Source: Nitrosarchaeum sp. | GTDB taxonomy: Archaea > Thermoproteota > Nitrososphaeria > Nitrososphaerales > Nitrosopumilaceae | Assembly: GCA_016844465.1 (NCBI GenBank) | Contig: JAERMO010000007.1 | Coordinates: 1-42,052, forward strand | Direction: 5' to 3' | Length of the DNA: 42,052 nt | In this document: in pieces, positions 1-2,101 of the stretch | How positions within the stretch are numbered: position 1 is the stretch's first letter | Layout of the letters: each line of letters opens with the position of its first letter | The notes under the pieces: generated by a model | Seen by the model: only the letters and a program-made list of their open reading frames with translations | Database searches by the model: none | What the model was told of the DNA's origin: nothing | Translations under genes and position numbers: made by a program

Positions 1-1
1 A

Positions 2-718
2 ACAGGTGAGACTGGTTCCACAGGATCAACAGGTGAGACAGGTTCTACTGGATCAACAGGTTCCACAGGATCAACAGGTAACACCGGCTCAACAGGTTCC
101 ACAGGTTCTACAGGTAACACCGGCTCAACAGGTGAGACAGGTTCTACTGGATCAACAGGATCAACAGGTTCCACTGGCGAACCTGTTTCTGTCGAAGGCG
201 GAGGATGTACAGATTGTAATCCGCCAATTTTAGGATATGACAGCGCTGGCAGAAAGCTTGTAGATGGTGGATTTACCTACAACGGTCAAACAACTGAAGT
301 TAACTATTTCTTTACTCCATTTCCACTAATCACTGCTGAAATAGGCAAAGAAAATGTTGTCAAATTAAAGATATACGAAGACAGTGGTCCTGAACAAATA
401 AGACATGTAGCATTAGGATTTGGACTAGCAACAGGTGAGTATATGAGTCAGAGCAACGCCGTAATCGTATACGATATTGACTCTGAGGGTAATGCCGTAA
501 TTTCACAAATTGATCCAGAAAATGCGATCGATGATAACTCACTCAGAATAGAACGAGAAAATGTAAAGTGTACTAGTTCTTCTACAGATGAAAAATGCTT
601 ACTAGTTACAGTATATCATACATTTAGAGCTCCCTTAATGTTTAACATTGTTGGAACTGATGTCTGGGATGAAAGGAAAACTCTTGGCAAAATTTCTTCA
701 ATCATGGTATACATATAA
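2..718 (+). CDS. Collagen-like TGS-repeat surface protein, 5' partial, frameshifted
   Basis: The frame is open from the window edge, so the N terminus is missing. Bases 2-181 encode 20 Thr-Gly-X triplets (X is Ser, Asn or Glu), the Gly-X-Y pattern of collagen-like archaeal and bacterial surface proteins. A non-repetitive domain follows, beginning after a CTDC motif and containing blocks such as [13 protein letters not shown] and [21 protein letters not shown]. This frame ends at 716-718, but the -1 frame from about 679 continues with sensible protein ([17 protein letters not shown]) straight into the next entry. The two pieces are therefore probably one gene interrupted near 677-680. Function is inferred only as extracellular or cell-surface; the family of the C-terminal domain is not recognised. 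Confidence 0.7.
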
Positions 719-729
719 CCGGAAATTCA

Positions 730-1206
730 ATGAATCCTCCAAAAGAATATGACGGAATTAACAAAGGAGTGATCTATCACTTGACTGAAACTAGCAGAAC
801 CACCTCAACTGATGATCTAGGGAACACTTGGTCACTTGAATATGGTTTGTGGACTATGGATTTCAAGCCTATAATTAGACATGATCCAGATCTTGTTAAT
901 CCTGAAAAAATTTGGGCAATCAAACACATGTTAAAGGATAATACTCCTCAAGACATATCTGGCCTATTTGGTTACGATAGAAACCACATCAAGTTTGTTG
1001 AAGTAAAAAATGGACAACTACTCATCGCTGAATCAATGATGCAAAAGATATGTCCAGAGTGCACTGATAAACCATATGACAAGATTAATGACATCTTTTA
1101 CTATGAAATGCCAGAATTTCTACAAAGATCAGAAAACCCAGAGCTACTTGCAAAGATACAATATGAGGCAGATAGAGCTTATGATATTTTGTTAAAAATG
1201 CCATAA
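730..1206 (+). CDS. Continuation of the collagen-like protein after a -1 frameshift
   Basis: The first ATG is at 730, giving 158 residues (MNPPKEYDGINKGVIYHL...). Coding-quality sequence already starts about 50 nt upstream in the same frame (from 679), overlapping the end of the preceding frame. No separate promoter or ribosome binding site is apparent, and the piece lacks a signal peptide. It is most simply read as the C-terminal third of the preceding repeat protein. It has one Cys pair (CPEC) and many Tyr, Asp and Asn residues, with no recognised catalytic motif. If the shift at the A-run is an assembly error, the two entries form a single CDS ending at 1206. Confidence 0.6.
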   Translation: MNPPKEYDGINKGVIYHLTETSRTTSTDDLGNTWSLEYGLWTMDFKPIIRHDPDLVNPEKIWAIKHMLKDNTPQDISGLFGYDRNHIKFVEVKNGQLLIAESMMQKICPECTDKPYDKINDIFYYEMPEFLQRSENPELLAKIQYEADRAYDILLKMP

Positions 1207-1300
1207 ATTAACTTGGCAGATTCTTTTCAAAAATATTTTAAATCCAATTTGTTTTCTGTCTTTTCCAACGGGAGATTCCTGAATAATCCGTTTCTACACC

Positions 1301-1903
1301 TTAATAATTTGCAAAATTTCCGAAATTTTTAAGGAATGTTTGTTGAGCACGTTGATTTTCAATAATTATTCCATTTTGTAAGACTGGGTCTTCGCTTCTT
1401 TCATATCGTTTACTATATTGTATTTGAGGTTCATTATTTTTGCCAAAATCTGGATTTTGTATCTGTTTTCCATACACCAACTTATCAAATATCACTTCTG
1501 CATTTTTCATACTATATTCTTTTATTTGATTAAAATAATAATTGTTCCTAGTTAGGTTAGTTGGAATCTCTTGATCATGTAATATTTTTTGTTCTAATGC
1601 CTTGCCTTCCAAGTAATCAATTTCATTAATTTCTGGTTTTATAATCATTAAATCTGCAAGTATTTCCTGCACTGGTTTAGTAATAACCGTGTTTTGTACT
1701 TGGTTAGTGTCTTGGTCATTCTGGTCTGATTTTTTCACTGGATTTCCTAAATAATCGGTAAATACTATTGGTGTTCCAGTATCAAGATGAATACAATTTT
1801 CTCCATCCCATTCTGTGTCTTTTGGACATACTGCATCACCATATGCATTATTGATTGCAAAAGACAATGTTACAACAATTGCCAATAGCATTATTTGCTT
1901 CAA
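1301..1903 (-). CDS. Small secreted protein of unknown function
   Basis: The protein has a clear signal peptide and no recognised domain. A TTG at 1903 gives MKQIMLLAIVVTLSFAINNAYG followed by DAVCPKD, a classic short basic n-region, hydrophobic core and cleavage region. The same frame extends to a TTG at 1936, and an ATG lies at 1891. The mature part begins with a CPKDTEW-DGENC module, similar in form to the Cys pairs in the surface protein at 12817-14199. The rest is polar and rich in Asn, Gln and Glu, without further membrane segments. It is probably exported and soluble or loosely wall-attached. It is convergent with the collagen-like gene. Start position is uncertain. Confidence 0.65.
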   Translation of the reverse strand: MKQIMLLAIVVTLSFAINNAYGDAVCPKDTEWDGENCIHLDTGTPIVFTDYLGNPVKKSDQNDQDTNQVQNTVITKPVQEILADLMIIKPEINEIDYLEGKALEQKILHDQEIPTNLTRNNYYFNQIKEYSMKNAEVIFDKLVYGKQIQNPDFGKNNEPQIQYSKRYERSEDPVLQNGIIIENQRAQQTFLKNFGNFANY

Positions 1904-2101
1904 ACCAAATAGTTCTTGATTTTGCGAATTAACCAATAGACTAGAATTGAAACGATTACAATATAGGCGTCAGCTAGTTCAAAATAAGACAAATTTAATC
2001 TGTTTTTATCCTACTACAAGCAATATGATCACATATTCTTATTTTTGAAATCTATGTAGATTATCAACGAATAATAGCCTGCAATATGCAAAATTTTTTT
2101 G

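Follow-up and report, generated by a model that had tools for sequence, protein, structure and literature searches.

A gene for a presumably secreted, collagen-like protein that is read from two overlapping frames raises a simple question: does the split belong to the biology of the cell, or only to the sequence as it was assembled? Such a case lies at the start of the 42,052-nt stretch analysed here (the window), which is the whole of contig C72 in an assembly of 169 contigs and 1.56 Mb that is 77% complete. The initial annotation had described a collagen-like surface gene split by a −1 frameshift at an A-run, and had proposed assembly error, real pseudogenisation, phase variation, and slippage-based recoding as possible causes. 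The existence of the split and each of these causes are considered below.

Two Open Frames and One Protein Gene

On the forward strand, frame 2 runs uninterrupted between base 2 of the window and a TAA at 716–718 (238 aa), while frame 1 carries a stop at 670–672 and is then open from 673 to a stop ending at 1206, so that the two frames overlap by 46 nt (673–718). Recomputed reading frames thus agree with the frame 2 end at 718 and the 176 codons of the −1 frame (676–1203) given by the initial annotation; its peptide KNSWQ is the reading with an extra base, and the raw −1 frame reads KENSWQNFF instead. None of 20,000 mononucleotide shuffles of 676–1203 was free of stops, and the other two frames carry 10 and 24 stops in the same interval, which argues that the downstream open frame is not due to chance.

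When the upstream and downstream halves were searched separately, both led to the same loci, in which the two regions are adjacent within a single open frame. The genome itself holds three such homologues, two copies on C65 and one on C69, and relatives with homologues include G004, G005, G008, G009, G027, G046, G054, and G055. The upstream part of the conserved core (191–676) is 80% identical to the paralogue on C69 and 64% identical to G008 (Nitrosarchaeum sp. nzgw8), which is the best-matching homologue and has been placed in the same genus as the window, and the downstream translation is 41–59% identical to the C-terminal half of the homologues, over near full length in the best cases. The genera with the closest intact homologues are Nitrosarchaeum, Nitrosopumilus, Cenarchaeum, and Ca. 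Nitrosotenuis, and the host belongs to the Nitrosopumilaceae and is probably Nitrosarchaeum-like. At the junction (671–685, with AAAA at 677–680), DNA was read in 14 homologues, three from the same genome and 11 from relatives, and every one of them runs in frame, the window being one nucleotide shorter. Altogether 24 loci were found in GTDB genomes, one of which, from MAG NORP47 (L088:4010–4952), is also broken; its frameshift lies in the upstream half, within the core domain, and does not share the site of the break in the window.

The possibility that the locus consists of two separate genes has one point in its favor, namely that the first ATG of the downstream frame, at 730, stands 12 nt past the upstream stop. 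However, the first stop ends none of the homologues examined, the break cuts a conserved and confidently modelled domain, and the second part would lack a signal peptide; two natural genes are thus ruled out by homologues that never end at the first stop, and the probability left to this reading is close to nil. The comparison with orthologues that had been proposed in the initial annotation has therefore come out in favor of its split gene, and the arrangement named there as contrary to it, with orthologues ending at the first stop beside an independent second gene, fits none of those examined. Judged by homology across the junction, frame 2 and frame 1 are the two halves of one protein gene split by one lost nucleotide.

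Architecture of the Protein

The upstream half (2..718, + strand), whose 5′ end is lost at the contig edge, opens with collagen-like G-[STNE]-T triplet repeats (5..181, + strand) that match PF01391 of Pfam (E 1.7e-9), scoring 37.7 bits where the cut-off is 27.2, followed by the first part of the core domain (191..676, + strand). The downstream half (676..1206, + strand) holds, by homology, the end of the core domain, running up to the residues NSMNP, and a helical tail with a CPxC motif. Of the conserved columns, 35 of 37 are kept before the break and 19 of 19 after it, giving 54 of 56 in total. The domain that follows the stalk, beginning near residue 64 of frame 2, has no convincing match in Pfam or NCBIfam.

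An AlphaFold model of the intact homologue L067 shows a confident beta-sandwich that spans residue 1 to about 185 and includes the strands 150–157, 162–168, and 171–174; the break corresponds to about residue 160, and in terms of this model it takes away the last strands of the conserved core. A fold search of the PDB retrieved only generic immunoglobulin-like sandwiches, with TM scores (query) of about 0.25, which identify the domain as a beta-sandwich and nothing more specific. A sequence search of the PDB gave a single helical match that was judged spurious.

The unnamed core domain together with the CPxC tail recurs in Nitrosopumilaceae (window 191–1203; L067–L087). In the homologues the domain is carried on stalks made of collagen, Fn3-like, or propeller-like repeats, or of Ser-rich linkers, with a signal-peptide-like start before them, and the protein presumably resides at the cell surface. 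In G009, G046, and G054, small secreted-looking proteins (L019, L020, and L016, respectively) are encoded beside the large gene and end in the same tail, with E values of about 1e-9 to 1e-11 against the tail of the window, and this recurrence suggests that the small tail-bearing protein and the large gene form a partner pair. In the window, a convergent small gene on the minus strand (1301..1936) has a secreted-protein-like start and a C-terminus with weak similarity (44% over 25 aa, E 0.053) to the tail of the split protein; from these features it is a possible partner.

Collagen-like proteins are known from this archaeal family, as Ca. Nitrosotenuis chungbukensis MY2 has an LPXTG-anchored collagen-like adhesin (PMC13037477). 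The split protein is likewise predicted to be a secreted collagen-like protein; it differs in carrying the unnamed core domain and tail. The same genome encodes a second collagen-like protein (G000:C39:577–2226, L127; 549 aa), in which triplets of the GDKGxxG type form long stretches, and a third collagen-like ORF with GADGSD repeats and a signal-like start that is cut by the contig end (G000:C42:3–404, L128).

The Missing 5′ Half and the Genomic Site

Contig C72 begins within the collagen-like repeats, and the 5′ end of the gene thus lies outside the window. The terminal ORF of contig C58 starts like a signal peptide and encodes an Fn3 domain (PF00041) as well as GST repeats; the genes beside it are those for tRNA-Ala-CGC and a zinc-ribbon protein, together with a second small gene. 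These C58 genes stand directly upstream of dihydroorotase in four relatives (G008, G009, G010, and G016), and dihydroorotase is found in the window at 2099. This shared gene order indicates that C58 most likely lies next to C72 with the gap inside the repeats, and the missing 5′ half of the gene most likely lies on C58, an assignment made by repeat type and synteny rather than by contiguous sequence; no exact overlap was found between the ends of the two contigs. Contig C42 was also considered as the 5′ part, and was set aside in favor of C58 on repeat type and synteny, having a different repeat (GADGSD) and at most 6 nt in common with the start of C72. The intact product would accordingly be composed of a putative signal peptide, an Fn3 domain, a collagen-like GST stalk, the conserved beta-sandwich core, and the helical CPxC tail.

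The interval from tRNA-Ala-CGC to dihydroorotase (the end of L129, and window 1–2099) is a variable site. It holds the collagen-like gene in the present genome, is empty in G009, and is occupied by another secreted gene of about 440–540 aa in G008, G010, and G016; in G005 the contig starts inside dihydroorotase, and the tRNA-Ala side was not found.

Phase Variation and Recoding

It could be imagined that slippage at the A-run toggles the gene between a long and a short form of the protein. As in the phase-variable genes of meningococcus, the gene encodes a predicted surface protein and carries an indel at a homopolymer; the consistently variable tracts in that bacterium, however, are those of at least 8 (PMC5084427), while the tract here is just 4 nt long and nothing indicates two states. 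The AAAA at the break is one of 1,039 A/T runs of at least 4 in the window, it is not the long simple-sequence tract of phase-variable contingency genes, and no long tract occurs at this site in the homologues. Phase variation is thus highly improbable.

Alternatively, a full-length protein could be made through transcriptional slippage or a programmed −1 ribosomal frameshift, as in fucA1 of Sulfolobus, where two ORFs that overlap by 40 bases are accompanied by a stem-loop and by A-AAA-AAT in the 0 frame (PMC8211752). The layout is indeed similar, with two ORFs in −1 relation, a short overlap (673–718), and uninterrupted genes in relatives. Both signals of fucA1 are nevertheless absent from the split gene: there is no X-XXY-YYZ heptamer in the 0 frame, the sole one (AAATTTC at 690) being in another frame, and no stimulatory RNA structure was found downstream, the fold of 681–780 being less stable than that of most shuffles (z-score +0.85). 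The break is also not conserved among the homologues. We regard recoding of this kind as no less improbable than phase variation.

Among the four causes initially proposed, these two are therefore unsupported. Nothing speaks for regulation, and in the preferred reading the split is no regulatory device. It is very unlikely that the split is real and tolerated, with a full-length protein made by non-canonical slippage at the A-run, or with lengths switching in the population. The other two causes, assembly error and real pseudogenisation, stand.

Recent Deletion or Assembly Error

Taken literally, the sequence would have translation stop about 12 residues past the break, without the last strands of the core or the tail, and would leave a downstream part that has no signal peptide. 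A disrupting lesion that is absent from relatives, as found here, is expected of a pseudogene, which would also carry the lesion in the DNA of the organism and not just in its assembly. An old pseudogene is nonetheless ruled out by the intact conserved residues: the split gene has no second lesion, and with all 19 conserved downstream positions intact, the lesion must be either very young or false. The upstream half gives a dN/dS of 0.09 against the C69 paralogue, a rough value with synonymous sites near saturation. Together, the intact homologues, the lack of a second lesion, and this ratio fit a gene that is whole.

The reliability of the assembly was assessed with a broken-gene screen, in which 1,489 ORFs of G014 were compared with 235 kb of the 1.56 Mb assembly. 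Outside the window, the screen flagged ten apparently broken genes in the 235 kb, of which one on C4 was discounted as a weak repetitive match and two or three (parts of C15 and C18) are less conserved genes. Among the others, SecY (C7) is broken by a false deletion, HMG-CoA synthase (C15) lacks 46 nt, 2-isopropylmalate synthase (C8) lacks about 32 nt, and RlmN (C10) is interrupted by an N-gap between duplicated 20-mers; these four would hardly be lost together in a living archaeon, and the breaks are thus assembly errors. Contigs with local deletions or N-gap duplications in conserved genes are G000:C7, C8, C10, C15, C3, and C1. On stretches of the relatives, which comprise about 225 genes, the same screen yielded 2 candidates, with a Fisher value of 0.002 that is approximate, the 225 including 21 genes of G014 itself. 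On the contig of the window, none of the 34 genes checked was broken.

The gene would then in truth be whole, one nucleotide having been dropped at 671–685 by the draft assembly, and to such a local error we give an even chance. The break is also 677 bases away from a contig end that arose from repeats. In its private indel, intact homologues, and other broken genes in the assembly, the locus resembles the ordinary frameshifted genes and pseudogenes of draft MAGs. It differs from the other breaks of this assembly in size, as the lesion here is 1 nt, whereas the characterised false indels are mostly of 8–66 nt or gap duplications and none is of 1 nt; the loss is thus not obviously in the same class. 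That this particular break is false is what we infer.

The rival reading is that a 1-nt deletion, real and very recent, has left this strain with a pseudogene or with a gene whose protein is shortened. Real frameshifts are ordinary in accessory surface genes. This gene is a member of an accessory family with several copies, of which three paralogues remain in the genome, it occupies a variable site, and the homologue of MAG NORP47 has been frameshifted elsewhere in the gene. Single-base errors, furthermore, appear to be rare in this assembly: across about 133 kb of conserved coding DNA, the screen revealed no clear indel of 1 nt, and it detected 61 of 86 artificial 1-nt deletions. Against this stand the youth that the undamaged downstream half would demand and an assembly that demonstrably breaks essential genes falsely. 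We judge a real deletion to be a serious candidate with slightly less than an even chance, and error and recent pseudogenisation are about equally likely.

Implications

At face value, the locus would have been taken as a sign that ammonia-oxidising archaea recode or switch a surface protein, and slippage or length switching, if true, would be to our knowledge the first case in a thaumarchaeal surface protein. This reading is unsupported by the evidence, and follow-up work on it can be saved. Indels in this assembly need support from reads before any biological reading is given to them. The most useful by-product of the analysis is the unnamed secreted core domain, which merits a family entry.
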